From assembly GCA_016938735.1 (NCBI GenBank), contig JAFGUB010000030.1, positions 1 to 55,584 of the forward strand: DNA of 55,584 bases. Reading direction: 5' to 3'. Below, piece after piece: positions 3,512 through 37,418 of the stretch; position 1 is the first letter of the stretch; each line of letters opens with the position of its first letter. The DNA comes from Campylobacterales bacterium. Lineage in GTDB: Bacteria > Campylobacterota > Campylobacteria > Campylobacterales > Sulfurimonadaceae. A program made the position numbers and the translations under genes. A model generated the notes under the pieces. That model did not search any database. It was not told the DNA's origin and worked only from the letters and a program-made list of their open reading frames with translations.

Positions 3512-4177
3512 TTACGAAAATAGCTCTCTGAGCCCCTCTTTGTTGAGGATGGAAAAGTATTTGCCCTCGTCGCTGATCAAACCGAGCATTTTGAGTTTTT
3601 TTAACGATCGAGAGAGGGTTTCTGGCGTTAGTCCCAATATCGTCGCGATCATCGCCCGCTTGGTCGATCCGGAGGCCGTGCCGTGTTCATAAAGAAACTT
3701 GGCCACGCGCGACGTAGCGTCGAGGGAGAGACGGTTGGTGATGATGTTGTCAAGATATTTGATCTTATGGGACAGCGAAGTAATGAAGGCAAAGGCGATG
3801 TCGGGGTTTCGCAGAAAGTCCCTCTCAAAGAGCGGATAGTCGATTTCAAGCACCACACCCTCGGTTTGAAACTCTGCCGTTGCCGGATAGGGAATATGTC
3901 GAAGATTGGCCATTTCAGCCACAAGCGACACCGGACAAAAGTGGTGCAGTACGATCTCGTTTTCGCGCATATCGGTTTTGTACGCTTTGACGATGCCCTC
4001 GATCAGCACAAAGAGTTTTTTACTTTGGCTCCCTTCATAAAAAAGTACACTGCCTGATGTGTAAGCAACAAAGCGACTGATCCCGCCAAGCATCTTTAAG
4101 TCATCATCATTCAGTGCTGCAAACATTTCGACACTGCGCAGGCGCTCGATCATCGTCGTGAGGTTAGAGTCGGACAT
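3512..4177 (-). CDS. Crp/Fnr-family regulator, Dnr/NssR-like
   Basis: The protein has about 220 residues, with an N-terminal cyclic-nucleotide-binding-type sensor domain, a long dimer helix and a C-terminal winged helix. The recognition helix reads TPETLSRSLKKL, with the E-x-x-S-R residues that Fnr uses to read TTGAT half-sites. The Fnr N-terminal cysteine cluster is absent, so it is closer to NO-responsive Dnr/NnrR/NssR proteins. The frame is open to 4231; I prefer ATG 4177, which overlaps the TonB receptor stop by 14 bases, but no strong ribosome site marks it. It is the best candidate in the window for binding the TTGAT-N4-ATCAA boxes (inference). Confidence 0.82.
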   Translation of the reverse strand: MSDSNLTTMIERLRSVEMFAALNDDDLKMLGGISRFVAYTSGSVLFYEGSQSKKLFVLIEGIVKAYKTDMRENEIVLHHFCPVSLVAEMANLRHIPYPATAEFQTEGVVLEIDYPLFERDFLRNPDIAFAFITSLSHKIKYLDNIITNRLSLDATSRVAKFLYEHGTASGSTKRAMIATILGLTPETLSRSLKKLKMLGLISDEGKYFSILNKEGLRELFS

Positions 4178-6380
4178 GAAGTTGTGCGAACCATGCCGTC
4201 CCTTCGGCACGCTCATAACTGTAGTATTCATGATCGAACAGGTTGTTGATGGAGAGACTAAGATTGATGGTATCGTCTATTCTGTATCCAAGCTTGAGAT
4301 TGACGATGCCTGAGGGGTCGAGTGAGCCGTAGACATCGGTCGCGGTATCGGCGTTGTCTGGGCGGTTGTATATTTTTGAGTGGTACATGTAATAAAGCGC
4401 CGTGTAAAAAAAGGCGTCGTCATAGATTGCCGACAGGGAATAGCGCTCACGCGCAATGCCTTCAAACTGCTTATTGACGGAAGCTGGATCGGCGTCATTT
4501 TCGAGCACCTCGGTGAAAGTTCGGGTCATGTTGGCACTCCAGAGCAGATGAAACGGTAACGGCTGTGTCCATGCCACCTCATAGCCCTGGCTGCGCGCTT
4601 TACCGACATTGATACGGCCGTAATAGGTGGTTCCATCAACGGTTTCAAGCGTTTTAGTCGAGAGCATCTCTTCAAGCTGGGTATGAAAAAGATAGGCTTT
4701 GAGCATCCCATAGCGTATCAAGCGCTGCTCGATGCCGATCTCGTAAGAGAGGCTGCGCTCAGGCTTCAGCTCGGGATTGGCGACATAGACCCGTTTCATC
4801 AGCGGAATTTCGTAGGTGCGGTAGAGATTGACCGCATCAGGCGCTCTAAAGGCGCTTCCGATGGAACTTTTGATTTGTGTTTCTGGGGTCAGGTTGTATC
4901 CGAGTGAGATTTTAGGCGCAAAATTGTTGTGCGTTTTGGCGTCATAATCGGCGTTGAGCAGGCTGTTGTCGGCTTGCATATCGTCACGGGTGTAGCCATC
5001 AAAGGTTTTCCATGTCTCATACCGCATACCCAGTGAAGCCCACCAATCTGCTCCAAAGTCATGGCGTACATCCGTATAGAGTGCGATGATCTCCTCTTTG
5101 CCTCCGGAGGCGCCGGTGCGCTCTGTTTTTGAAGATTCGTCGCGCCAATCTTTGAGTCCGTAGGTTTCGGCGTCTGCACTGTTTTGTTTGTATTCTGCGC
5201 CGATAAGATAACGCCCGCTCTTGGCACGGTGCAAATAGTTTACATGTAAAGCAGAGCTGCGGTTTTCACGTGGTGTGAGGGTACCTAAACCTCCATCGCG
5301 TGTCGCTTTGGAGTCGGCAGTGGTGTACCAGTCATCGGTAGAGAGATGGCTTAGTGAAGCGCTTAGTGTACCCTCCAGGAGGGCATCGCAATAGGCTAAC
5401 TGATAGAGACGACTCAGCAGATCGCTTTGACCCTGAAGAAACTTGCTCTCGCTAAGACGCGCTCCTGCCGCGTTGAAACTATAAGCCGTTTCGCCGCTCT
5501 CTTCAAGTGTGAGCAAGGAGCGGGGGTCGTCATACTCCAGATGATGATGCCCCTCGCGCACCGTCAGATCCCACCTTGCATCGTCATCTTGCTCAAAGCG
5601 CAGTTTGGCGCTGAGATGGTACTTATCCACACCCCCTCGGCCGGCATCGCCGACAATCCATTGGGGGGTTCCCGGAAGCGGTGAAGAGCTCTGAGCGACA
5701 AAGCCGTTGTATCCCGATGGTGGAATTTTTGAGACACTCACCCAATCAGAGCGGTATCCCTGCGTGTCCATTACGGAAGCGTCCAGGGCAAAGCGCCACG
5801 ATTCACCCAGACTATCGGCTGCTCGAAGATAACTCTGTATGACTCTGCCGTTGGCCTCATCATTATGGAGTGCGTCACCATAACCGATCGAAGCGCGATA
5901 CTCCGGCTTGTCAGGCATCTTGGTAACAAAATGTACCACGCCGCCCATAGCACTGCTGCCATAGAGACTGGAGTAGGGTCCGCGTACCACTTCGATCTGC
6001 TCTAGCGATTCAACGGGGAGGTTAAAGACGGAGGGGGCAGAACCGTTGTAGCTGGTGTTCATCACGACCCCATCAAGTAAAATGAGGGTGCGTGCCTGAT
6101 TGGGAATGCCGCGCAAAAGGATGGAAGGATTGACATCAGAGAGGCCGCGATGTTCGATGACGGTGGAGCCCTCTAAGCCCACCAGGGTCTCTTTGAGGTT
6201 GCCAAAAGGAAGCAGCTCAATCTGATCGGCATCCAGCAGCGTCGTGTTGGCCGAGAGCTCTTGGATCGTCGAATCGGTTTGAGAGGTTGTAACAATCACG
6301 CTTTCAAGCAACTGCTCCTCTAAGCCAAAAAGCAGCGTAGCGCATAGCAATGCGCAAGGGATCGTAACACTTTGTTTCAT
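4164..6380 (-). CDS. TonB-dependent outer-membrane receptor
   Basis: The 738-residue protein has a signal peptide, a TonB box (ESVIVTTSQ), a plug domain (about 45-160, with LLDGVVMN and VRGPYSSLYGSSAMGGVVHFVT) and a 22-strand barrel ending in the aromatic/leucine C-terminus FAQLHVRL. AGAGG precedes ATG 6380. It imports a bound nutrient across the outer membrane using TonB energy. The ligand cannot be read from the sequence; iron chelate, copper, haem or cobalamin are all possible. Its stop overlaps the start of the Crp regulator, so the two are probably co-transcribed within the denitrification cluster. Confidence 0.9.
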   Translation of the reverse strand: MKQSVTIPCALLCATLLFGLEEQLLESVIVTTSQTDSTIQELSANTTLLDADQIELLPFGNLKETLVGLEGSTVIEHRGLSDVNPSILLRGIPNQARTLILLDGVVMNTSYNGSAPSVFNLPVESLEQIEVVRGPYSSLYGSSAMGGVVHFVTKMPDKPEYRASIGYGDALHNDEANGRVIQSYLRAADSLGESWRFALDASVMDTQGYRSDWVSVSKIPPSGYNGFVAQSSSPLPGTPQWIVGDAGRGGVDKYHLSAKLRFEQDDDARWDLTVREGHHHLEYDDPRSLLTLEESGETAYSFNAAGARLSESKFLQGQSDLLSRLYQLAYCDALLEGTLSASLSHLSTDDWYTTADSKATRDGGLGTLTPRENRSSALHVNYLHRAKSGRYLIGAEYKQNSADAETYGLKDWRDESSKTERTGASGGKEEIIALYTDVRHDFGADWWASLGMRYETWKTFDGYTRDDMQADNSLLNADYDAKTHNNFAPKISLGYNLTPETQIKSSIGSAFRAPDAVNLYRTYEIPLMKRVYVANPELKPERSLSYEIGIEQRLIRYGMLKAYLFHTQLEEMLSTKTLETVDGTTYYGRINVGKARSQGYEVAWTQPLPFHLLWSANMTRTFTEVLENDADPASVNKQFEGIARERYSLSAIYDDAFFYTALYYMYHSKIYNRPDNADTATDVYGSLDPSGIVNLKLGYRIDDTINLSLSINNLFDHEYYSYERAEGTAWFAQLHVRL

Positions 6381-6631: not shown

Positions 6632-7528
6632 TTAGGCCTTGATTTTGCGAGAGAAGTAAATCTTCTCCAGCAGATCGTAAAGCACGATCGCCCCGCCGAC
6701 GATCATCATGCCGTCGGGGAAGATACGAATCCACATCATTCCCTCCATGGCCACCAGAATATCGCGCGCCCTTGTGGCGTAGTAGCCCAGTTCATAAGCC
6801 ACCTGCGCCTGATGCAAGCCGATGATCATGGTCGGAATGGAGTAGAGAATGACCCCGATGGTGAGCAACCAAAAGCCCCATTTGCTCAGACTCTCATTCC
6901 ACACCAGCCCTTTGGCCAGAGCGTTGGCACGCGCCGTCATATAGATGAAGGCGTAGCTGATATAACCAAAGGCGCCCAGCAGTGCCACGTGACCGTGTGG
7001 CATGATCAGGTAGGTTCCGTGTGAGTAGTAGCCGATGGTAGGCGTGTTGATCACCATACCCAGCCATCCCGCACCAAACCAGTTGAGAAACGCCGAACCG
7101 GCCAGCCACAAAAAGGGCACGCCCCAGTCAAAGCCGCGTCCCATCTCTTTAATTTGCTTCTGCTCTTTGATCGCCTCGACCATCAAGATAATGAGCGGCA
7201 GCGGTTCCAGCGCCGAGAAGACGCCGCCGATGGCGATCCAGTACTCATCGGCACCCTGCCACCAGTAGTGGTGTCCCACACCCAGCGTTCCTGTGGCAAT
7301 GACAAGGAAGATCTCAAAAAGCATGATGCGCTCCGCCACGCTGCGGCGTACCAGCCCCAGAGCGACTGAAAGATAAGCCAAAACACCGGCAGCAAAGAGC
7401 TCAAACGTCAGCTCCACCCACAGATGCACGACCCACCAGCGGTAGTAGTCATCGACGGTGAAGTTGGGCATGATTTTGTGAATCGGCATCATCCCCGCGA
7501 AATAGAGCGTGGCAATACCAAAGGCCGA
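6632..7528 (-). CDS. norB: Quinol-type nitric oxide reductase, C-terminal part (after in-frame UGA)
   Basis: This is the continuation, in the same frame, of the gene starting at 8857. Directly after the UGA it reads SAFGIATLYFAGMMPIHK, then RWWVVHLWVE with the FeB-site His and the family's Glu, then HYWWQGADEY and a run of helices with HGH (LIMPHGHVALLGA), as in the catalytic subunit of NO reductases. It ends FSRKIKA. A separate restart at ATG 7492 is possible, but no ribosome site stands out, and the split falls inside the membrane core. The two pieces together make 741 residues including the UGA position, the normal size of a one-subunit qNor. Confidence 0.85.
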   Translation of the reverse strand, partial: SAFGIATLYFAGMMPIHKIMPNFTVDDYYRWWVVHLWVELTFELFAAGVLAYLSVALGLVRRSVAERIMLFEIFLVIATGTLGVGHHYWWQGADEYWIAIGGVFSALEPLPLIILMVEAIKEQKQIKEMGRGFDWGVPFLWLAGSAFLNWFGAGWLGMVINTPTIGYYSHGTYLIMPHGHVALLGAFGYISYAFIYMTARANALAKGLVWNESLSKWGFWLLTIGVILYSIPTMIIGLHQAQVAYELGYYATRARDILVAMEGMMWIRIFPDGMMIVGGAIVLYDLLEKIYFSRKIKA

Positions 7529-8857
7529 TCAGATAATGGTGCCGACGAGCACATCATTTTTGGCTTTGCGAATGGTGCTATAAACCATCCCGAACCAAAA
7601 GACCAGACCCACCAAAAGCCCGATATCCCATACGCGCCCCAGCTCCAGGAACTCACGCCCTTCAGAGCCAAACCAGAACCATGTTTCACGCAAATAGCCC
7701 ATAGAACCGAGATAAATCCCGATGAGTCCGCCGCCGCCTACGATGAGGAGCGCGACCCACAGTACATCCACAAGGCGGGGGAAACGCAGATCTTTGCCGG
7801 CAACAATCGGTGCAATCAGCAGTCCGCCCACGAGCCAGCCCACGGCAACCCAGACAATAGCAAGGTTGAGGTGCAACTGTCGTACGACGTTAAAGGGCAA
7901 AATATCCTGCGAGATCAAAAAGTGATCGGTAGGATCGGCGTAGATATGGGCCAGATAGCCGCCCAAAATGAGCTGCAAGAGCGAAAAGAGCGCCACGATA
8001 GGAACATATTTGAGCAGTTTCTCCTGTGAGGGGAAGATGCTGGTGATCTTAAGCGGCTCTTCGAGCTTCTCTTTTGAATCATCATTCTCCTTGATGAGGT
8101 ACTCATACGCCAGATAGATCACCAAAATGGTTGCAGGCCAGAGTAGCAGCCACTCCCACAGCGTAATGTTGTGAGAAGCCCAGGTGACATCCTGATCGAT
8201 CATCGGCTCTTTGGGCCAGTTGTTTGACCAAGTACGATCGGTACCGGGGCGTTTAGACGAAGCGACCATCTGCGACCAGTCCACAAAGGCAGCGATACGT
8301 GATGCCTCTTCGGGCTTGATCACCCCACCGCGCCATGCGCGCTCATGATCGCCCTCGACCAGAAACTTGATGAGATAATCACGATTGGCTTTGTAGGCCA
8401 ACGCCGAAGCATCCGAATAGACGATCTGCTCTTCACTCATCACCACGGCGTTGAAGTCTGCTTTGGTCAGCTCCTTGACGGCGCCGCGCTCTGCCGCGCT
8501 CAGTTCGGCACTTGGTTTGCCATAGTGTTTGACACCGAAGAAATCATAAAGAAACTCGGCACGCTTGTGCATGAATTCCGTCGTGAAGTCGGGTCCAAGG
8601 TAGGCCCCCATCCCCAGCATCGAGCCGTAATCCATCAGGCCGAACTGCTGGAAATCGCCTTTACCTTTGACGATGTCGTCGTAGGTATAGAGCAGCTCTC
8701 CGCTTTGGCTCTTGACGATCTGCGGCAGCGGCGGCACCTCTTTGGCCAGATTGGCGGTGAAGTAGATCAGCACCGTCACCATAAATATTCCGATGATCCA
8801 GAACGCGCCATAAAGGCCTTTTCGGCTCATAAACCCTTCCAATGCCCTAGAAAGCAT
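7529..8857 (-). CDS. norB: Quinol-type nitric oxide reductase, N-terminal part (ends at in-frame UGA)
   Basis: These 442 residues hold the qNor N-terminal region: a first helix (LYGAFWIIGIFMVTVLIYF), the large periplasmic domain with the typical YGSMLGMGAYLGPDF segment, a second helix, and the first haem-copper helices, including LPFNVVRQLHLNLAIVWVAVGWLVGG with a haem ligand His. The frame stops at TGA (minus strand, bases 7531-7529, codon 443 of 742) and continues without a shift. NO reduction to N2O needs the C-terminal half, so the gene is either non-functional, read through, or carries a sequence error. An Fnr box and -10 lie upstream. Confidence 0.88.
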   Translation of the reverse strand: MLSRALEGFMSRKGLYGAFWIIGIFMVTVLIYFTANLAKEVPPLPQIVKSQSGELLYTYDDIVKGKGDFQQFGLMDYGSMLGMGAYLGPDFTTEFMHKRAEFLYDFFGVKHYGKPSAELSAAERGAVKELTKADFNAVVMSEEQIVYSDASALAYKANRDYLIKFLVEGDHERAWRGGVIKPEEASRIAAFVDWSQMVASSKRPGTDRTWSNNWPKEPMIDQDVTWASHNITLWEWLLLWPATILVIYLAYEYLIKENDDSKEKLEEPLKITSIFPSQEKLLKYVPIVALFSLLQLILGGYLAHIYADPTDHFLISQDILPFNVVRQLHLNLAIVWVAVGWLVGGLLIAPIVAGKDLRFPRLVDVLWVALLIVGGGGLIGIYLGSMGYLRETWFWFGSEGREFLELGRVWDIGLLVGLVFWFGMVYSTIRKAKNDVLVGTII

Positions 8858-27037: not shown

Positions 27038-27943
27038 CTACGCCTTAACGACGCGGAGGCTCTGGGCGTTTTGAAGGTTCTTTTTGAGTTTTTTGAGGTG
27101 GTTGGCGCTTTGGTGCAGCTCTTCGCTGAGTTGGAGCATCATATCTTCGCTCTGCTCAAGCAGCGCGTCGCTCTCGGGTGAGACGCCTTGCGCTTGAACC
27201 GTGAAGAGTTCGCTCTTTTCAATCGCTTCGGTGGCGCTTTGGAGGGTCTCTTCGACGTTTTGCAAGAAATACTCGATGTGGGCGCAAGCGATGTCGAGTT
27301 CGTTGCCGCTTACTTTGTCCACTGAACTTTGTCCGCTGATCTGCTGCGAATGGGCGATGAACTGATCGAAATTTTTCTGGATGCCCAGTACCAGCCGCGC
27401 CATGTATAAAATGACCGCAAAGCTCAATATGGCGAGCACCGCCTGAACGCGAGAAGCCAACATCCGCTTTTGCATGATGTGGCGTTCATACTGCGTCACG
27501 GCATCGTCCATCAACCCTAGCGTCTGGATGCCGCGATCGTAGATCACTTTGAGATCATATAGGTTGTTCTCTCCAAGCAGATAGCGATCGATGAGGGTGC
27601 GCATGACGTTCCAGTTCTCCCCTACGGCGCTCATGGTTTGGCGGATTTGTTCGTTGGAGAAGCCTTGATGTTTGGCTGTGACCTCTTTGAGATAGGTGTA
27701 GTTGCGGTCAAACTCGCCGCGCGCCTCCTCCAGCCGCTCAAACGATCCCTCTTCATTGACCAGCAATCGGTGCAGCTCCAGCACGGTACGCTGCGAAAGC
27801 ATCCGCTGTTTGCCCGCGACGTTGATGATCTTTGCATCAAGTTCCTGATCGTTGTTCAGCCAGATATTAACCCCAATAATGAGCATCAGATTGAGCGATA
27901 AGATCCCGACGATCCAACGGACTTTGTTTGAGATGGAGTTCAT
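27038..27943 (-). CDS. PilJ/NarX-type sensor protein without an output domain
   Basis: The protein has 301 residues: an N-terminal helix, a periplasmic helical bundle (about 30-165) containing NVAGKQRMLSQR, a second helix (about 168-188) and a cytoplasmic coiled coil of about 110 residues. The NxAGxQRMLSQR element is the hallmark of the PilJ-type domain and resembles the P-box that binds nitrate or nitrite in NarX/NarQ. No kinase, methyl-accepting or GGDEF module follows, so how it signals is unclear. Its ATG overlaps the end of the broken crp frame (ATGA). Nitrate sensing is inferred from the motif and from the nap operon beside it. Confidence 0.75.
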   Translation of the reverse strand: MNSISNKVRWIVGILSLNLMLIIGVNIWLNNDQELDAKIINVAGKQRMLSQRTVLELHRLLVNEEGSFERLEEARGEFDRNYTYLKEVTAKHQGFSNEQIRQTMSAVGENWNVMRTLIDRYLLGENNLYDLKVIYDRGIQTLGLMDDAVTQYERHIMQKRMLASRVQAVLAILSFAVILYMARLVLGIQKNFDQFIAHSQQISGQSSVDKVSGNELDIACAHIEYFLQNVEETLQSATEAIEKSELFTVQAQGVSPESDALLEQSEDMMLQLSEELHQSANHLKKLKKNLQNAQSLRVVKA

Positions 27944-28026
27944 GACAACCCCTCCTTGAAATAGCGCGACAGTTCATCCGGGCGTAGCACGACCACGTTG
28001 TGCTCTTGCTCCTCGATCAGCCCCTT
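27940..28026 (-). pseudogene. Remainder of the second crp gene after its in-frame UGA
   Basis: Directly after the UGA, in the same frame, the sequence encodes KGLIEEQEHNVVVL and then RPDELSRYFKEGLS with a stop at 27942-27940. This is the wing and C-terminal helix normally present in Crp-family proteins. With it the gene would be 219 codons plus stop, the usual size, and would overlap the next gene by ATGA, as expected for an intact operon. Confidence 0.75.
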
Positions 28027-28599
28027 TCACGTAAATTTGGCCAGAACCCTTGAGAGTGTCGCGGGCTGGATATTGAGCCGATAAGAGATCTCCTGCTTTT
28101 TGAGGCTGTTAAAGAGATCCAGATGTTCGCTCAGCATTTTAGCCACTTTTGCGGTCACGTCGAAGATCATTCCCATGTTGACCGTGCACTCCACCAGCTG
28201 CTTTTGGTCGGCAAGCATATTGACCAGATTGATCAGCAACGCCATATCGCTACGGACACACGATTTGAAGAGGGTAAGATCGAAAGAGACCACTTCGCTG
28301 GGTGTGAGAAATTCGATGTTGCTATAACAGCTAATGGTATCGCAATCCAGCGAGCCGATGTTGGTGAGCAGTGCTTGGCTTTCAAGTGAATAGAGAAAAA
28401 CTTCGTTGTCAAACCGATCCACTTTGTAAAATTTGGCTTCGCCGCTGAGCAGAAAATAGACGCGGCTAAGGTCATCCTCTTCATAAGCCAAAATCTCCGA
28501 AGCTCCATAGCGTTTGAGCCGTGAACCCTCTTCAAGCGCTTGCAGGTGCTTGGGGTCGGCACCGTCGAAAAAGCGCAAGTTTTGTAAGGCTAGAGGCAT
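28027..28599 (-). CDS. Crp/Fnr-family regulator truncated by an in-frame UGA
   Basis: The 190-residue product has a complete cyclic-nucleotide-binding-type domain (about 1-115), the dimer helix and a helix-turn-helix ending QPATLSRVLAKFT, where TGA (28029-28027, codon 191) stops it just after the recognition helix. The recognition helix has A-x-x-S-R instead of the E-x-x-S-R of the other Crp gene. Without the wing it may not bind DNA normally. It has its own promoter with an Fnr-like box. By context it would sense NO or nitrate metabolism; either it is decaying, or the UGA is read through. Confidence 0.82.
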   Translation of the reverse strand: MPLALQNLRFFDGADPKHLQALEEGSRLKRYGASEILAYEEDDLSRVYFLLSGEAKFYKVDRFDNEVFLYSLESQALLTNIGSLDCDTISCYSNIEFLTPSEVVSFDLTLFKSCVRSDMALLINLVNMLADQKQLVECTVNMGMIFDVTAKVAKMLSEHLDLFNSLKKQEISYRLNIQPATLSRVLAKFT

Positions 28600-28671: not shown

Positions 28672-29213
28672 TCCGCCATCAACCGCTTGATCAGTGATCC
28701 GATGCTACATTTTTCAATGCGGGCGCGTTGCGCTAAGGTCTCAAAACTCTGCTTGCCCAGATAGACACACAGCCGCACCCGATCCTCTTCAACCGCCCGC
28801 AGCGCATCATAGTGCTGCTGCGCCGCTTGGGCCTCTGTTTGGCTGATGGGGGTGCGCAGAGATTTGTACTCGATAAGCGTTCCATCTTTGTAAACTCCCG
28901 AGATCTCCGCATGTACCCAGTAGTAGCCGCCGTCTTTGCGCAAGTTTTTAACCGTTCCGCTCCATGCGCCCTGCTCGCGCAACGTTTGCCACAACTCGGC
29001 AAAAACCGAAGACGGCATATCGGGATGACGCACGATGTTGTGCGGTTTACCGATCAACTCCTGCGCGCTATAGCCCGAAATCGCAGCAAAAGTCTCATTG
29101 GCGTAGGTGATGATGCCGCGCAGATCGGTGCGCGATACGATCAGTTCTCCATGCGGTACCGGAGTCTCTACAAAGGGGGCAAAGCTGATCCCCTCAAGCA
29201 CGTCGTGATGCAT
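28668..29213 (-). CDS. PAS-domain sensor protein (Aer-like PAS)
   Basis: The protein has 181 residues. ATG 29213 overlaps the napD stop as TAATG, so the gene is translationally coupled to the nap operon. One PAS domain (about 20-130) contains ITYANETFAAISGYSAQELIGKPHNIVRHPDMP and NLRKDGGYYWVHAEISG, the form found in Aer-type flavin-binding redox sensors. The rest is a helical tail (about 130-181) with no known output module. It could report redox state to a chemotaxis or c-di-GMP partner; the partner is not evident. Confidence 0.78.
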   Translation of the reverse strand: MHHDVLEGISFAPFVETPVPHGELIVSRTDLRGIITYANETFAAISGYSAQELIGKPHNIVRHPDMPSSVFAELWQTLREQGAWSGTVKNLRKDGGYYWVHAEISGVYKDGTLIEYKSLRTPISQTEAQAAQQHYDALRAVEEDRVRLCVYLGKQSFETLAQRARIEKCSIGSLIKRLMAD

Positions 29214-29563
29214 TAGAACTTCTTTTTGAGATCGCCGTGATAGGTGATATCTTTGACATTCACCCCCTCGGCATTGAGCCACTGCGGGATCTCTGTGCCC
29301 TGAATTTCAAGCTTGTCGCGCTGGGCGTTAAGCTCCTCTTCGGTGTAGGCGAAGTGCATATCCGCTGCAACAACGTGGGGTATCACCTGAATGGCAGTGA
29401 GCTTTTTGATCTCCTCTTCGACCCCTTCGCCCTCGATGGTGACAATGATGCGTCCTTTATCGTCGTGAAAATGGTAGTCGCACAGTTCGCTTTTCTGTAG
29501 CGCGGCGACAACCTCGTCAAGGTAGGTGGGTGTGGTTTGAACCACGATGCTTGAGATGTTCAT
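29213..29563 (-). CDS. napD: NapD, chaperone for nitrate reductase maturation
   Basis: This 116-residue cytoplasmic protein has the NapD pattern: NISSIVVQTTPTYLDEVVAAL, then DDKGRIIVTIEG and ACT-like beta segments. NapD binds the twin-arginine signal of NapA until the molybdenum cofactor is inserted. The C-terminal part beyond residue 85 is longer than in enterobacterial NapD, as is usual in this group. AAAAAGGAG precedes the ATG. It ends the nap operon proper, after the porin gene and a hairpin, and its stop overlaps the PAS gene start. Confidence 0.88.
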   Translation of the reverse strand: MNISSIVVQTTPTYLDEVVAALQKSELCDYHFHDDKGRIIVTIEGEGVEEEIKKLTAIQVIPHVVAADMHFAYTEEELNAQRDKLEIQGTEIPQWLNAEGVNVKDITYHGDLKKKF

Positions 29564-29577
29564 AAGGACTCCTTTTT

Positions 29578-29591
29578 GGCGCCGTAGCGCC
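29578..29591 (-). other. Intercistronic hairpin with UACG tetraloop
   Basis: On the minus strand GGCGC-TACG-GCGCC forms a five-pair GC stem closed by C-G around UACG, an exceptionally stable RNA tetraloop. It lies between the porin and napD genes and just before the napD ribosome site (AAAAAGGAG). No U-run follows on that strand, so an RNA-processing or stability role is more likely than termination. Confidence 0.5.
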
Positions 29592-29593
29592 TT

Positions 29594-30838
29594 TTAAAAT
29601 TGATAATTTAGCTGCGCCCAACCGACGGTTTTGTCTTTGGCGACGAATGCAAGACTCTCATCGCCTGCGCTGAAGAAGGCGGCTTTAAGCAGCAGCGACA
29701 GGCCATTGACGGCACCGATTTTGTTAGCATAACTCACATCGATCTCGCTGCCGAGATCCTCTTCGCCGGTTTGGGCTGAAAAGCTATGATACACAAGCGC
29801 CAGATTGCCCAGTGCTGCCGCATTATAACCCGCCATGACGTTCATATCGATCAGGCCGTTGGCGTTGTTCGAGCCTAAAAAGACGTCCGCCCAGCCGTTA
29901 AACTTATGGAGGGTCGCCAGTGGTGTCATAAAGCCGTTGTTGACATCATCGCCCGCTTCACCCAGCACTTCATAGCCTGCACCCAGCGTAGCACCGCTAT
30001 AGGTCGCTGCAAGTTCCAGATTCATATACGACGCATCGGCTTTGACATCCTCAACGCGGTACTCCAGCGAAGGGTCGCTTTGGATGGCATACTCCGCGCG
30101 GTAGCTGAGTGAAAGATCGGGATTGACCTTGGCTTTGCCGTGCAACGCCGCGCCGTAGGTGTCACTGATGGAGCCGAGCATATAGCTATAAGCGACAAGC
30201 GTTGCTTCGGGAACCATCTTGTAAGAGAGATTGATCAATGCGCTGGAAGTTTCGGTGGCTCTGTCCGCTACGGCATATTTTTTAACCGGATTGATCCCAA
30301 ACACGTAAGCTGCTACGACACTCAGCGGCTCGACCGGATTGGAGATGAGCGCGACTGCATCGAAGCTCTGGGGCATTTGACGCCAATCGACGGAGCCTAC
30401 GAAGCGCTGGTTGTCGAGGTTGACGATCTGGCGACCCGCTTTGATGGTCGTTTTGGCCGGAAGCTTGATCGCCAAATAGCCCTGAGTTAAACGTGCCTGA
30501 TCGGGATCAACGATGGTATCAAACTCGGTTTTGCCGTTGGCGGTGGAGAAGTATTCGTCATAGCCGAAGTTATTGACCGAAACGCCTTCAAGACCGAAGC
30601 CCAGCATGGAGGTTCCGGCAATGGAACCGGCAGTGACACCAAGACGGGTACGGGCGGTAAAAGCACTGCCTGCGTCTTTGTCGTTGTCGGCGATATCGGC
30701 ATTTTCGTAACGCAGGCGCACTTGGCCGTTAAACTTTACGTCGTCAAAGAGATTGATGCCTTGTGCGGTATTGTCGGCAAAAAGATTGGCACTAAGTGCA
30801 ACAGCAGCAACAGCTGAAAGAGTGAACCATTGTTTCAT
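29594..30838 (-). CDS. Outer-membrane porin inside the nap operon
   Basis: The protein has about 414 residues with a signal peptide (MKQWFTLSAVAAVALSANLFA), then an all-beta pattern of alternating strands (FNGQVRLRYENADI, TARTRLGVTAG, TTIKAGRQIVNLDNQRFVGS) and a C-terminal aromatic residue (LNYQF), as in alginate-export/OprD-like porins of Campylobacterota. ATG 30838 has AAAGGA upstream; the longer frame to 30868 would run into napL. Lying between napL and napD, it probably supplies nitrate or lets nitrite cross the outer membrane (inference). Confidence 0.8.
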   Translation of the reverse strand: MKQWFTLSAVAAVALSANLFADNTAQGINLFDDVKFNGQVRLRYENADIADNDKDAGSAFTARTRLGVTAGSIAGTSMLGFGLEGVSVNNFGYDEYFSTANGKTEFDTIVDPDQARLTQGYLAIKLPAKTTIKAGRQIVNLDNQRFVGSVDWRQMPQSFDAVALISNPVEPLSVVAAYVFGINPVKKYAVADRATETSSALINLSYKMVPEATLVAYSYMLGSISDTYGAALHGKAKVNPDLSLSYRAEYAIQSDPSLEYRVEDVKADASYMNLELAATYSGATLGAGYEVLGEAGDDVNNGFMTPLATLHKFNGWADVFLGSNNANGLIDMNVMAGYNAAALGNLALVYHSFSAQTGEEDLGSEIDVSYANKIGAVNGLSLLLKAAFFSAGDESLAFVAKDKTVGWAQLNYQF

Positions 30839-30849
30839 TGTGAATTCCT

Positions 30850-31818
30850 TTATTGTTTGAGATTCCAAAAGAGAATACGCTTCTCTTCTGCGGCAGAAAT
30901 AAGCATCTCTTCACCCATAAAGAGGATGTCAACGAGTGTGGCATCGTGTCCTTTGAGGGTGGCGATGTTCGCCTTGGTTTGGGTGTCAAAAAGCAGTAGA
31001 TCGTTTTCGATCGAACTGGCAAATACACCAAGCGCCGCGCTCGGCGAAAGTGCGGCGGCGTAGATCAAAAACGAACCGTTCACATAGTAGGCCTCGCCGT
31101 TTTGGCGGTAGATCGCACAGCGGCGATCTTGCCCTGCGGTAATGACAGTGCCGTTTTTATAATCGATCTTGTAGATATTGTCGAGGTTTTGTCCGATAAA
31201 AAGCTTTTGATGGGTGAAGTCATCGACTTTAAAGAGGTTGACTTCGCCGCTCTCATCGGCGGTGATGAGGGTTTTGCGCTCTTCGCTCAGCACAATATCG
31301 CCCAGCGCCGAACCGCCGCTACGGCGTGCCTTGATCGCTTTGCGGTAGAGCGGGGTGCGTGTTTTGAGATCAAACAAGACGATCTCGGAGCTCAGCAAGC
31401 CCAAAACGATGCGCTGCGCATCCACAAAGAGCCCTTTTTTGATAATCAGCTCAGAACGCTCGTCAATGAGCCGCTCTAAGGCTCTTTCACGGTACATGTA
31501 GACATCGCGGTAGCCCGATTTGCCCTGAGAGACAATCAAAAGCGCACCCTCAAACGCGTCGATGGAGTAGATTTTCGGCTGGCTCAGATCGCCTAGAAAA
31601 TCGGGCACGGCGGGTAGGGTGATGGTGCCTTTGTGCGTTTGGGTAGCGATATCAAAAAGATCGATAATACCTCGATCGGTTGCGGCGTAGAGGGTTTGCT
31701 CTACATGTAACAGATCCGTCACCAAGCCTGAGGCTTTAAGCGCATAAGCACTTTGAAGCGTCGCGGCTTGTAAAGCGCTCGAGAGGATCAGCAAGATGAA
31801 TAGACGTCGCATGTTCAC
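30850..31818 (-). CDS. napL: NapL, periplasmic beta-propeller protein of the nap operon
   Basis: The 322-residue protein has a signal peptide (MNMRRLFILLILSSALQA) and repeated WD40-like blades (LYAATDRGIIDLFDIATQTHKG, TLITADESGEVNLFKVDD, NGTVITAGQDRRCAIY, EMLISAAEEKRILFWNLK). Length, signal peptide and position after napF match NapL of Campylobacterota nap operons. Its biochemical role is unknown; it is not required for the basic NapA reaction in all species. It contains one palindrome with one mismatch (31701-31710). Confidence 0.85.
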   Translation of the reverse strand: MNMRRLFILLILSSALQAATLQSAYALKASGLVTDLLHVEQTLYAATDRGIIDLFDIATQTHKGTITLPAVPDFLGDLSQPKIYSIDAFEGALLIVSQGKSGYRDVYMYRERALERLIDERSELIIKKGLFVDAQRIVLGLLSSEIVLFDLKTRTPLYRKAIKARRSGGSALGDIVLSEERKTLITADESGEVNLFKVDDFTHQKLFIGQNLDNIYKIDYKNGTVITAGQDRRCAIYRQNGEAYYVNGSFLIYAAALSPSAALGVFASSIENDLLLFDTQTKANIATLKGHDATLVDILFMGEEMLISAAEEKRILFWNLKQ

Positions 31819-31830
31819 TCCTTGATAACA

Positions 31831-32313
31831 TTATGCGGTCACGACAATCGCACCGCTGGGGCAGCGCGAAAGACAAAAACCGCAGGCGGTACACTTTTCG
31901 CTTTCGATCATGGGACGATAGAGCCCGCTAAAGAGGATCGCATCTTCCAGGCAAGGCTCTTTACATGCAAAGCAGATCACCCCGTGATGGCTCATGCACT
32001 TTTGGGTATCAATCAGCACATGCGCCCTGATCGGTGCACCGGCATCATAAAGCACCTCATGCGTGCAAGCCTTCAGGCACGCTTCGCAGTAGGTGCAGCC
32101 ACTTTGGGCAAAGTCGAGATAAGGTGTGCCTTTGTCACTGATACGCATAATGTGCTCTTCGCAGGCATTGACACACGCTTTGTCGTTACATGTAATGCAA
32201 ATAGAGCCAAAACGCATCGCATCACCGGCGTAAGGCGGACGGATCATTGGAGCTTTAAGCGCAGCGCTGCTGCCTAAAAAGCTGAAAAAGTCACGTCTGC
32301 CCAGTTCTGCCAT
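31831..32313 (-). CDS. napF: NapF, ferredoxin-type protein
   Basis: This 160-residue cytoplasmic protein has four cysteine clusters for 4Fe-4S centres: CITCNDKACVNAC, CTYCEACLKAC, CFACKEPC and CTACGFCLSRC. It begins with an RRDFFSFLG segment as in other NapF proteins. NapF is thought to act in cofactor loading or electron supply to NapA in the cytoplasm. It follows napB after two bases. A TTACATGTAA (32186-32195) contributes the T-C-N residues of the first cluster. Confidence 0.9.
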   Translation of the reverse strand: MAELGRRDFFSFLGSSAALKAPMIRPPYAGDAMRFGSICITCNDKACVNACEEHIMRISDKGTPYLDFAQSGCTYCEACLKACTHEVLYDAGAPIRAHVLIDTQKCMSHHGVICFACKEPCLEDAILFSGLYRPMIESEKCTACGFCLSRCPSGAIVVTA

Positions 32314-32315
32314 CG

Positions 32316-32942
32316 TTAGTTAATCCCTGCGTTGAGGGTATCAAGCAGATTGGAGCGGTTTTTCATCGTGTCGTTTTGATAGTCCGGACGGAAGTTGTTT
32401 TCCACCAGAGGATCGCCTACGTTTTGGGGTGCATGGCACTGTGAACAGTTAAAGCGTCCCTTGTGCAGTTCATCGAGCTTATGGACGATGACTTTGATGT
32501 CACTGGTTGTTTTGAGTTTTTGACCCTCATAGAGCAGATTGCCCTCTTTGTCAATCTCCGGTTTTGGACGGAAGCTCGCAAAGTGTGACGTGGGAATCGG
32601 CGTCGCACCCATGGATTCGGCCACTTCAGGACTATGACACGCGATACACTGATTGTCCTCTCTGGTGATCGGCAGCATCCCTTCGGTGTCGTGCGGGATC
32701 ATCGGCGGCGCGTTGTCAAAGGCACGCTCATACTTCACCCCTGAACCTAGAGTGTTGGTGGCGTATTCGGTTTTGCTTGGCAGGGTCGTCTGTTCACTAT
32801 AAAGCGTGGTCTTGCGCAGACCGATCGCCTCCTCCGTTTGGAGCGGCTTTGCTGCTTCTACTTGAGCGGGTTTGCTCTTATCGCTACAGCCGCTCATCAT
32901 CAAGACGGCTGCAAGCGCACTGATTAGTACTATCTTTTTCAT
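32316..32942 (-). CDS. napB: NapB, dihaem cytochrome c subunit of nitrate reductase
   Basis: This 208-residue protein carries two haem c motifs, CIACH and CSQCH, with the surrounding MIPHDTEGMLPI and PTSHF segments typical of NapB. It passes electrons to NapA. The N-terminus MKKIVLISALAAVLMMSGCSDK has a lipobox-like MSGC, so it may be a lipoprotein rather than freely soluble. ATG 32942 overlaps the napH stop by four bases; a longer frame to 33215 is only an overlap with napH. Confidence 0.92.
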   Translation of the reverse strand: MKKIVLISALAAVLMMSGCSDKSKPAQVEAAKPLQTEEAIGLRKTTLYSEQTTLPSKTEYATNTLGSGVKYERAFDNAPPMIPHDTEGMLPITREDNQCIACHSPEVAESMGATPIPTSHFASFRPKPEIDKEGNLLYEGQKLKTTSDIKVIVHKLDELHKGRFNCSQCHAPQNVGDPLVENNFRPDYQNDTMKNRSNLLDTLNAGIN

Positions 32943-33754
32943 AAACTCTTCTCCTTGGCTTGCATTGCAAATTTTCTTAGTGAAAAGTGGAGTGCATCGT
33001 CGTCGCACACTTCGACGCAGCGACCGCAGTTGATACACTCCCCCATCACTACACTTTCGCTGCTCTTGGCAACCATGTGCAGCACCTCTTTTTCCGGACA
33101 CACCTCTTTGCACTTCATACAGGCCGTGCAAGCCTCGGCGTCGTGATAGACGCGGATCAGCGAAAAGCGCCCCGCGAGACTGTAAAACGCCCCCAGCGGA
33201 CACAGATGACCGCACCAGCCGTTCTCGTGGACAAACAGATCAAACAAAAAGATCACCACGATGGCACCCACACCCAGACCCATTCCAAAGACGGCTCCGC
33301 GGTGCACTATCGAAATCGGGCTGATCATCTCAAAGGCCGCTACACCCATCGCAAAAGAGAGCAAGAGTCCAAGGCCCATCACCCAGTAGCGAATGGAGCG
33401 GCTCATATAAACCCTCTTTTGGACCTGCGAGATTCCCAGACTCCGGCGCAGCTTGTTAGCAGCATCGGTAATGAGATTGACCGGACAGACCCACGCACAA
33501 AAGGCGCGACCTCCGATGATCATATAAAAAAGCGCGATAATCAGCGCGCCCAAAAGCACGTCAAATCCCAGCACCGCCCCTGCGAGCGTCATCTGCATAA
33601 TCGCATAAGGATCGGCGAGCGGAATCGATTCAAAGAGCAGCGAACTGCTCAAATTGCCCTGCAAAATCTTCCAGCCAAAGAGATTGGCACCGATGTAGAG
33701 GCCCAAAAGCCCCAGCTGCGTTAAACGGCGCAGGATCATAAAACGGTACTTCAT
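32939..33754 (-). CDS. napH: NapH, membrane quinol dehydrogenase subunit
   Basis: The protein has 271 residues: four membrane helices with the CAWVCPVN and CGHLCPLGAF motifs at the membrane face, then two 4Fe-4S clusters (CTACMKCKEVCP and CINCGRCVEVC). With NapG it oxidises menaquinol and sends electrons to NapB, replacing NapC, which is absent here. ATG 33754 has AAGGA seven bases upstream and starts one base after the napG stop. Confidence 0.92.
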   Translation of the reverse strand: MKYRFMILRRLTQLGLLGLYIGANLFGWKILQGNLSSSLLFESIPLADPYAIMQMTLAGAVLGFDVLLGALIIALFYMIIGGRAFCAWVCPVNLITDAANKLRRSLGISQVQKRVYMSRSIRYWVMGLGLLLSFAMGVAAFEMISPISIVHRGAVFGMGLGVGAIVVIFLFDLFVHENGWCGHLCPLGAFYSLAGRFSLIRVYHDAEACTACMKCKEVCPEKEVLHMVAKSSESVVMGECINCGRCVEVCDDDALHFSLRKFAMQAKEKSL

Positions 33755-33755
33755 C

Positions 33756-34529
33756 TTAGAATCCTTCATCCGCATTGAGCGCATCGAGCGCGCTTTGTTG
33801 GTTGATCTTCGTTTGGGTGGTTTCCGCTTTGGCACCCGCTACGCGTGCCTCATCGCCGCTGTCCCAGCCCTTGATGTAGTGATCTCCGACCTTACCTAAA
33901 GCAATCGCGTTGGGCAGTACAAAAATCGCTGGTTTTTCGGTGATGCAGGCCCGTTCGCACAGACCGCAGCCCGTACAGACGTTGGTATTGACCACAGGCT
34001 TCAAAAAAGCATGCTTGCCGGTGCGTTCGTTCTTCTCGTATTTGAGATAGATCGCCTCATCCATCAAAGGACAGGCGCGGTAGCAGGCATCGCATTGGAT
34101 GCCCCAAAAGGCAACACACGCCTCGACGTCCACCACCGCAACGCCTATATCGATCTTTTTGATCTCCCACGCACCTGTTTCGTCTTTGAGTGAGGCTTCA
34201 TTCAAAGCCCCCGTCGGACAGACAGGCACACAGGGGATATCTTCACACATATAGCACGGTATATCGCGAGGCACAAAGTAGGGCGTTCCGATGGGATTGC
34301 TATCCCCCGGAGCCGCCAGACGCAGCGTGTCATAAGGACAGGCCAAAACACACAATCCACACTTGATACATGTACGCAAAAAATCGCTCTCAGGAAGTGC
34401 GCCGGGCGGACGCAAAATCAGGGGTGCACTGCGCACCTCACCGACATACGCGCTCCACGCCAAAGCACCCATGGCCGCAAGACCGATGCCTCTGGCCATG
34501 GAGAGGATAAATTTGCGACGCTCATTCAT
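33756..34529 (-). CDS. napG: NapG, periplasmic ferredoxin-type quinol dehydrogenase subunit
   Basis: The 257-residue protein has a twin-arginine signal (ERRKFILSMARGIGLAAMG) and four 4Fe-4S sites (CIKCGLCVLACP, CYMCEDIPCVPVCP, CDACYRACP and CTGCGLCERAC), exported folded and bound to NapH. It starts 11 bases after the napA stop. Sequence and order (A-G-H-B-F-L) are those of Campylobacterota. Confidence 0.92.
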   Translation of the reverse strand: MNERRKFILSMARGIGLAAMGALAWSAYVGEVRSAPLILRPPGALPESDFLRTCIKCGLCVLACPYDTLRLAAPGDSNPIGTPYFVPRDIPCYMCEDIPCVPVCPTGALNEASLKDETGAWEIKKIDIGVAVVDVEACVAFWGIQCDACYRACPLMDEAIYLKYEKNERTGKHAFLKPVVNTNVCTGCGLCERACITEKPAIFVLPNAIALGKVGDHYIKGWDSGDEARVAGAKAETTQTKINQQSALDALNADEGF

Positions 34530-34540
34530 GGCTTATACCT

Positions 34541-37342
34541 TTACGCTTTATAAATTTTGACCGCACATTTTTTATAGTCGGTCTGCTTGGATTGCGGACA
34601 GGTGGCATCCAGACACACTTTGTTGATAAAGACCTTTTCATCAAACCACGGTACAAAGACGAGCCCCACCGGCGGACGGTTACGTCCACGGGTCTCGACA
34701 CGCGCTTTGACCACGCCTCGGCGTGACTCGACATTCACCAGATCACCACGCTGCACGCCGCGTTTTTTGGCATCATCGGGGTGCATGTAGCAAAGTGCTT
34801 CAGGCACCGCTTTGTAAAGTTCCGGGACACGCATCGTCATGGTGCCTGAGTGCCAGTGCTCCAAAACACGTCCGGTACAGAGCCAGGTGTCATATTCGGC
34901 ATCCGGCATTTCGGGGGGATCCATATAAGGACGGGCAAAAATTTTGGCTTTATTCTCCAAAGATTTCTTCGTTTTGTCCGTAACCTTTTGCAGATCACCT
35001 TGTGCGAGCTCTTTGGCCAGTTTGCCATAGAAGGCGAAATCGCTATCGGGCGCTGCTTTTTTCGCATAGGGGTCGTATTTGGTATTGAAGCGCCACTGCG
35101 TCTCTTTGCCATCCACAACCGGCCATTTCAGACCGCGCACCTTGTGATAGACATCAAAAGGAGCCAGGTCGTGCGCATGGCCGCGACCGAAATCGGCGTA
35201 CTCCTCAAAGAGGTACTTCTGGACAAAGAAGCCATATCCATCAAAGACTTTACCATCGCTACCGACGACTTTGCGGCTATCGCCCATCGCCTCGGAGTTA
35301 TCGTAGCCCGCTTGAACGGGATCTTTGAGATCGACCTTGTAGCTCTTGGCACGCTCGTTAGCAAAGATAATCTCATACATGGTGGTGTTATCTTTGTAGC
35401 CCATCTTTTTGGCCGCTTCGCGGACGTCGGCAAGCTTGGTGCCATCGCGCAGGGTCTGTTCACCCCACAGATCAGCGACCGTAAAGCGCTTGGAGAACTC
35501 TATCCACTGCCAGGTGTCGCTCATCGCATCGCCTACAGGAAGCACCTGCTGACGCCACAGCTGGGTGCGGCGCTCCGCGTTGCCATAACCGCCCCATTTC
35601 TCATAGATCATTGCCGAAGGCAGGATCAGGTCAGAGACCTTCGCCGAGATGCCCGGATAACCGTCAGAAGTGACGATAAAGGCGTCCATTTCGCGCGCTG
35701 CGTTGATCCAGTGGGTTGCCGAAGCGCTATCTTGGTAGGGGTTACAGACATTGACCCATGCAAATTTGATATTACCGTCTTCGATATCACGGTGAATCTT
35801 CATAATATCTTGGTTGCCAATGGGGTTTAGAGTTCCCTCAGGTACCTTCCACGCCTGCTCGCAGATTTTGCGGTGCTTGGGGTTGGCGCTCATCATGTCT
35901 GCCGGCAAGCGGTGGGTAAAGGTACCGACCTCACGCGCCGTGCCACATGCTGAGGGCTGACCGGTAAGCGAGAAGGCGCCTGAACCCGGCTTGGCTTGCT
36001 TGTTGAGCAAGAAGTGGACGTTGTAGGAGAGGGTATTGACCCACGTTCCACGGGTGTGCTGGTTCATTCCCATGGTCCAAAACGAGACCACTTTGCGCTC
36101 TTTTTCAATATAGAGCGCGGCAAGGGCTTTGAGCTTCTCTTTGAAACTCTCTAGGCTCTCGTTGGGATCGCCCTTAGAGATTTTGGCGACGTAATCAAGC
36201 GTATAAGGAGCCAAAAATTTCTTGTACTCCTCAAAGCTGATCTCCCAGTGGGCCAGACCCGCCGGTTTCATCTCCATCATATCGCCCTCTTTGTAGCCAA
36301 AAGGCGCAAGCGCCGGGGCCTCTTTGGCAGAGACCGCTTTGCGCATCTCTTTGCCGTAGGTCTCCATCTCTTTGGCGCTGTATTTGCCGCTTTTAATCGA
36401 AATCTCGTTGTCACGTCTCATCCCGTAGCCTGTATTGACCGGCTGCGAGGCGAAGACGATGTGCTCTTTGACAAAATCCCAATCGATTGACTCGGGATGG
36501 TTGTAGACGATCTCATGCGCGATATAGTTCCACAGCGCCAAGTCGGTATTCGGGGAAAAGATAATCTCGATATCGGCCAAATCCGAAGTACGGTGGCGGT
36601 AGGTGGACATATTGATCACCTTGACGCGGTCAGGCTCGGAGAGCTTGCGATCGGTCACGCGTGACCAGAGGATCGGGTGCATCTCCGCCATGTTGGAGCC
36701 CCAAGAGACGATGGTGTCCGTGAGCTCGATATCGTCATAACAGCCTGAGGGCTCATCAATCCCGAACGTTTGATAGAAGCCTACGACGGCTGAAGCCATA
36801 CAGTGGCGTGCATTGGGGTCGATGGCGTTGGAGCGGAATCCCGCTTTCATCATCTTGAGCGCCGCATAACCTTCCATAATGGTATATTGGCCTGAAGCGA
36901 AGATGCCGAGTCCCTCGGGTCCCTTCTCTTTAAGAGCACGTTTAGCGTGTTTTTCCATCTCATCAAAGGCGCGCTCCCAGCTCACCTCGGCGAACTTGCC
37001 TTTCTTATCAAACTCACCCTTCGCATTGACGCGCAACAGCGGTTTGGTCAGGCGGTCCGCACCGTACATGATCTTGGCATTGAAATAGCCTTTGATGCAG
37101 TTGAGGCCGCGATTGACCGGAGCTGCAGGGTCGCCTTTGACTGCGACGACACGCCCATCTTTGGTGGCCATCATGATGCCACATCCTGTGCCGCAGAATC
37201 GGCACGCCGCTTTATCCCAACGCCAATCTTTCTGTGCCTCTTCAGCTGCCGCCTGTGCACTCACCGGTAATGTCATACCGATTGCACTGGCCGCCGAAGC
37301 CGCCGCCGCGGATTTTAGAAAATCCCTTCGCTCCATACTCAT
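34541..37342 (-). CDS. napA: NapA, periplasmic nitrate reductase catalytic subunit
   Basis: This protein of about 933 residues has a twin-arginine signal ([19 protein letters not shown]), a 4Fe-4S site ([11 protein letters not shown] and a fourth Cys in LNCIKGYF) and the molybdenum-ligand cysteine in [10 protein letters not shown]. The C-terminal cofactor-binding part has [16 protein letters not shown]. It reduces nitrate to nitrite on a bis-MGD molybdenum centre. Of three nearby ATGs, 37342 has GGAG at the best spacing; 37345 is also possible. It is the first gene of the operon, with an Fnr-like box and a TTACATGTAA upstream. Confidence 0.95.
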
Positions 37343-37418
37343 CATCGCTCCTTTGTATCGAAATTCGTTCGAATTTCAGAGTATGGACGTAGCTTATCGC
37401 GATCATTAAACAATGTCT

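Follow-up and report, generated by a model that had tools for sequence, protein, structure and literature searches.

A gene for a Crp-type regulator of nitrogen metabolism is cut by an in-frame UGA in a stretch of DNA that carries a second nitrogen-metabolism gene interrupted in the same way, which raises the question of whether UGA has changed its meaning in this organism or whether the regulator gene carries an ordinary nonsense change. The DNA that we analyzed (the window, by which we mean the whole stretch of 55,584 nucleotides) lies on contig C7 of a 2.85 Mb genome in 62 contigs, presumably a MAG, that is 99.69% complete with 1.06% contamination. The host of the regulator is a sulfur-oxidizing bacterium.

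An interrupted regulator gene beside nap

Direct reading of the minus strand from position 28599 to position 27940 gives a frame of 219 amino acids with a single internal TGA, at codon 191 (28029-28027). The original prediction had described this TGA as being followed by 28 codons of the true C-terminal end of the protein and then by an ATGA overlap with the next gene, and these coordinates proved exact, with orthologs aligning through the stop. The locus is made up as follows.

28027-28599, minus strand: open part of the Crp/Fnr-type regulator gene, 190 codons plus the premature TGA, comprising the ligand-binding domain and the helix-turn-helix (HTH) up to the recognition helix
28027-28029, minus strand: premature TGA, codon 191; the aligned residue in orthologs is Arg (CGN)
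27943-28026, minus strand: 28 codons that follow the stop and encode the wing and final helix of the regulator, conserved as judged by nucleotide identity to the closest relative
27940-27943, minus strand: ATGA in which the original end of the crp frame (terminal TGA 27942-27940) overlaps the start of the PilJ gene
27038-27943, minus strand: gene for a PilJ-domain membrane protein with the motif INVAGKQRMLSQR, the partner gene of the regulator (Pfam PF13675, 66 bits)
29213-37345, minus strand: nap cluster adjoining the regulator (napD, porin, napL, napF, napB, napH, napG, napA), in which no interruption was accepted

When the frame was read through the stop, Pfam matched cNMP_binding at residues 29-117 (28.0 bits; cut-off 27.5) and HTH_Crp_2 at residues 165-213 (34.3 bits; cut-off 27), the latter spanning the stop. 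The frame thus has both the cyclic-nucleotide-binding-like domain and the Crp-type winged HTH that mark the Crp/Fnr superfamily, and on its sequence the gene is a regulator of that superfamily belonging to the nap (nitrate reduction) region. A search of the genome for a second intact copy found none, the other three matches being only 25-26% identical.

Relatives of the whole frame were present in 52 of the 60 related genomes searched, and the GTDB collection held seven relative loci, in Sulfuricurvum, Sulfurimonas and other Campylobacterales/Sulfurimonadaceae MAGs. The closest ortholog, an uninterrupted gene of a Sulfuricurvum MAG, is 83% identical over residues 1-219. Arg occupies the position of the stop in all eight distinct intact loci of at least 61% identity that cover it (CGC in three, CGT in two, CGA in two and CGG in one; L003 and L032, which are one contig, were counted once). 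A ninth locus (L007, 60.5% identical) stops short of the aligned position, the next (L006, 47%) has Lys there, and the more distant relatives have mostly Arg or Lys. Since the close orthologs all have a CGN codon for Arg at this position, the CGA-to-TGA change that had been proposed is well supported, and the stop would most simply have originated by that transition. The string L-A-K-F-T-R predicted for the uninterrupted protein was also nearly exact, a 69%-identical ortholog reading LAKFTRLGLI.

We then compared the two sides of the stop with the closest relative. In the tail 22 of 28 residues match and 6 of 28 codons are nonsynonymous; nucleotide identity is 78.6% after the stop and 77.9% before it, and the third-position difference is 0.39 after it and 0.47 before it. 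Because the tail is as conserved as the rest of the regulator, either the stop arose recently or the base is an error. (Note that it is homology through the stop that makes the 28-codon tail something other than chance; openness over 28 codons alone is unremarkable.) With intact orthologs, alignment through the stop and no recoding signal, the regulator gene has the properties of a nonsense pseudogene.

A change from CGA to TGA at codon 191 would end translation at residue 190, midway through the winged HTH, and to judge from the domain match the 190-residue product, lacking the wing and the last helix, would probably be inactive or unstable. Translation of the downstream PilJ gene may in turn be reduced, given the overlap of its start with the original stop. 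That the truncated protein is instead a working, altered regulator strikes us as extremely unlikely: the stop lies past the recognition helix and constraint on the remaining frame is normal, as would suit such a protein, but every close ortholog that covers the tail retains it, and the Pfam HTH model extends to residue 213.

The surroundings of the gene are shared with its relatives. Among 12 distinct relative loci (L032 and L124 taken as one), napA lies near the regulator in all 12 and a PilJ-domain gene directly follows it in 8. The names given above to the genes of the nap cluster are ones that we presume from their translations and synteny, and the motif of the PilJ-domain protein is one that we take to be nitrate-sensor-like. 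No output domain was found in the PilJ-domain protein (27038-27943), and together with the Crp regulator beside nap it may form a nitrate-sensing unit.

Among known regulators, the nearest functional group to have been described is that of the Nss proteins of Wolinella succinogenes, which are of the Crp/Fnr type. NssA, NssB and NssC are described as raising the nitrate, nitrite and N2O reductases on nitrate, NO or N2O (PMC6682613). As far as that description extends, the Nss regulators and the nap-linked regulator have in common that they belong to Campylobacterota and are tied to nitrate-reduction genes, a likeness of family and location; they differ in that the copy here is interrupted and in that an adjacent PilJ gene is absent from the description of Nss in the available part of PMC6682613. 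By this analogy, our regulator probably works most like the Wolinella Nss regulators. The DNR protein, which belongs with NO-dependent denitrification control, is distant from the regulator, whereas the regulator here sits with nap. By sequence, no solved structure other than DNR (PDB 3dkw) was reached; the match (E 0.00048) aligned residues 5-208 across the stop.

A second interruption, in the NO reductase gene

At the other end of the window lie nirS (1738-3387), which is uninterrupted, and the following two genes.

3512-4231, minus strand: second Crp/Fnr-type regulator gene, uninterrupted, beside nirS and the qNOR gene
6632-8857, minus strand: gene for a quinol-type nitric oxide reductase (qNOR), interrupted by TGA 7531-7529, identified by homologs and Pfam COX1

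The second UGA interruption that had been claimed for the window is real. Two full-length, uninterrupted qNOR homologs (G010 and G018, 72% identical) have TGG (Trp) at the position of TGA 7531-7529, the Pfam COX1 match on the frame covers residues 282-713 and spans the TGA, and identity to the two homologs is about 74-75% after the stop and about 69-70% before it. The genome has two COX1-family genes, and since the other one is uninterrupted, the genome yielded no NO reductase other than the interrupted one. NosZ, encoded on contig C4, is uninterrupted (876.7 bits). An interrupted qNOR gene together with intact nirS and nosZ would leave NO without its usual reductase.

A shared loss of NO control, which the original prediction had offered as one way to account for both interruptions, is not borne out. 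The interrupted regulator belongs to the nap region, and napA lies near its relatives in every locus compared; it is the intact Crp-type gene at 3512-4231, not the interrupted one, that adjoins nirS and the NO reductase gene.

Stop codons across the genome

To find stops with coding signal on both sides, we applied a codon-context score and a test of the other frames to a sample of 936,198 bases (33% of the genome, in 60 pieces, window included). This returned 74 stops. Of these, 55 have an ATG within 7 codons and were assigned as a group, not one by one, to adjacent genes; the 19 with no ATG within that distance comprised 8 TAA, 8 TAG and 3 TGA. On inspection, nine of these 19 were judged to be neighboring genes or the ends of genes and were excluded (L084:14936, L092:390, L092:11663, L100:13726, L108:14851, L112:13493, L174:2134, L183:16821 and window:29596), and two were doubtful and left out (L108:12904, TGA, and L081:8525, TAG, neither with a Pfam match). 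Thus, there are eight probable in-frame interruptions in the 936 kb sample, four by TAG, two by TAA and two by TGA, six of them in addition to the regulator and qNOR genes.

L097:18925, contig C4: NiFe-hydrogenase large subunit, with TAG in place of a conserved Trp; contig C49 carries a paralog without interruption
L097:12544: phosphonate-binding/kinase protein, probable TAG or TAA interruption
L184:12274: chemoreceptor with a CZB domain, probable TAG or TAA interruption
L188:1994: dCache kinase, probable TAG or TAA interruption
L077:9020: methyltransferase, probable TAG or TAA interruption
L091:12775: Tll0287-like sensor, probable TAG or TAA interruption

Alignment across the stop supports window positions 28029 and 7531, L097:18925 and L097:12544 and, at a domain edge, L184:12274. 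For L188:1994, L077:9020 and L091:12775 the Pfam match begins beyond the stop or right at its edge, and the evidence is coding signal and inspection. Counting G:C-to-A:T changes alone, codon usage leads one to expect stops in the proportions TGA 22%, TAG 49% and TAA 29%, and on this expectation the probability of at least two TGA among eight is 0.56. With both doubtful sites included (TAG 5, TAA 2, TGA 3), the probability of at least three TGA among ten is 0.40.

In a separate homology test, gene calls of relatives, made by coding score, were aligned to 182 places in the genome. Four nonsense sites (TGA 2, TAG 2) and one probable frameshift were accepted; the same test accepted none in 150 places of G010, 66 of G028 and 74 of G001. 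Inspection by eye removed four of eight sites in this genome, six of six in G010 and five of five in G001 as extensions upstream of genes, ends of genes or antisense frames; the least certain of these is L129:9727 in G001. The difference between 4 of 182 places here and 0 of 290 in the three relatives (Fisher P = 0.022, with two of the four being the window's own sites) is an excess of nonsense sites that hints at either somewhat more decay or more consensus error in this genome. Both of the homology-supported TGA cases lie in the window, and both are in nitrogen-oxide genes; two UGA interruptions in 55.6 kb are slightly above the rate elsewhere in the sample (P = 0.056, uncorrected for the choice of window). 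(Note that the probable frameshift is in a small gene, of RelE/ParE type by eye, at L191:4096-4379 on contig C58, as compared with a relative's copy. A frameshift-like site at L097:14500 was rejected as a gene boundary.)

These counts bear on the suggestion that UGA is suppressed or recoded, which was to be given up if other stops proved equally frequent as interruptions: in the 33% sample, TGA is no more common as an interruption than TAA or TAG. Moreover, the two UGAs in the window replace different residues, Arg in the regulator and Trp in qNOR, and with only two of the eight probable interruptions being TGA, at Arg and at Trp, reassignment of UGA to one amino acid was rejected. UGA is a common terminator, with which 190 of the 563 gene calls that reach 200 amino acids end (34%), and prfB, which encodes release factor 2 (RF2), is present (505 bits) and has no internal stop. 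As far as the uninterrupted state of prfB goes, an altered RF2, one of the causes that had been envisaged, finds no support, and reassignment through a lost terminator or a lost RF2 was likewise rejected. A suppressor tRNA with anticodon UCA, the other cause envisaged, was not found either among the 34 distinct tRNA sequences from loci around 38 tRNA matches, a list that is incomplete in that expected anticodons are missing (e.g., His, Pro and Ile), and such a tRNA could lie in an unassembled stretch. A pattern search for UCA tRNAs combined with ARAGORN gave four pattern matches, none of which is a tRNA. Selenocysteine insertion was rejected because neither tRNA-Sec nor SelB scored over its cut-off, the best matches reaching 38 bits (cut-off 47) and 196 bits (cut-off 242), respectively; the eight weak tRNA-Sec matches returned as loci are ordinary tRNAs.

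We consider it very likely that the interruption of the regulator gene is a recent, ordinary nonsense change in an Nss-like nap regulator, one among the scattered TAG, TAA and TGA interruptions of this genome, and not a sign that UGA has changed its meaning; it may be a fixed mutation, a strain variant or a consensus error of the assembly. The gene resembles an ordinary nonsense pseudogene in its one-base change to a stop, its conserved tail, its intact orthologs and the mixed stop types in the genome. If the change is ordinary, what remains is an annotation note: one genome has a nap regulator that is broken or wrongly assembled. It appears unlikely that the TGA is absent from the organism, having entered a metagenome assembly through an error of the consensus, an allele of a minor strain or deamination damage to cytosines. 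The 62 contigs and the excess of nonsense sites over the three relatives are in keeping with this possibility, and both window cases and the hydrogenase case (Trp to TAG) fit G:C-to-A:T changes; however, a single probable frameshift in 182 places argues that the assembly is not broadly error-ridden, and the values for completeness and contamination (99.69% and 1.06%) also speak against an artefact. Coordinated decay, in which the lineage abandoned NO reduction or control of nap and both genes came under shared relaxed selection, would account for the interruption of the sole NO reductase that we found and for the fact that qNOR and the regulator both deal with nitrogen oxides. We regard it as improbable, since NosZ, nap and nirS carry no interruption, genes with no tie to nitrogen (hydrogenase, chemoreceptor and kinase) are interrupted too, and the parts of the genes that follow the stops show no extra decay.

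tRNA-Trp and the reading of UGA

The only tRNA-Trp(CCA) found (L247, G000:C48:25442-25517, minus strand) has a C27-A43 mismatch and a 4-bp anticodon stem. It resembles the tRNA-Trp of Blastocrithidia in that positions 27 and 43 are unpaired and the loop is of 7 nt, with A9 (no A9C) and G24 (no G24A). The same 27-43 mismatch is found in 22 of the 29 relatives' tRNA-Trp examined, G010 and G028 included, the 29 being the loci returned from 56 related genomes with matches. According to PMC13092985, tRNA-Trp with a 4-bp stem is prominent in Campylobacterota, many standard-code genomes have no other tRNA-Trp, and in E. coli overexpression of a C27A variant increases readthrough of UGA some 2.5-fold; its relevance at native tRNA levels is, in the terms of that source, still to be assessed. 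Because the 4-bp stem is common to most relatives, it is a long-standing feature of the group and no explanation for interruptions in one genome.

Partial reading of UGA as Trp by this tRNA would restore the NO reductase exactly, at a low level, and would give the regulator Trp in place of Arg. In favor of such reading, the C27-A43 mismatch is able to raise near-cognate reading of UGA, the form is a published one (prominent in Campylobacterota, with its roughly 2.5-fold effect when C27A is overexpressed; PMC13092985), and the UGA of qNOR aligns with Trp in both full-length homologs. We nevertheless judge it very unlikely, given that G010 and G028 have the same stem and no interrupted gene was accepted in either, that TAG and TAA interruptions, which tRNA-Trp(CCA) is not expected to read, are no less frequent, that UGA is a common terminator in this genome, that the residue lost from the regulator is Arg rather than Trp, and that PMC13092985 itself leaves the relevance at native levels to be assessed. 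In codes in which UGA means Trp and tRNA-Trp(CCA) has a 4-bp stem (Blastocrithidia; Zinderia), the tRNA, like the one here, lacks the 27-43 pair; unlike in those codes, UGA here is a common terminator, RF2 is present, the interruptions are not biased toward UGA, and one UGA stands at an Arg position.

A broader version of this idea, which we rate as highly improbable, is that the 4-bp-stem tRNA-Trp makes UGA slightly leaky in these Campylobacterota, with the result that UGA at Trp codons would be partly silent and would persist in alleles of low expression, and that the regulator would be made at a low level with Trp. The stem of this tRNA makes native readthrough of UGA in Campylobacterota testable at a natural Trp-to-UGA site, that of qNOR.
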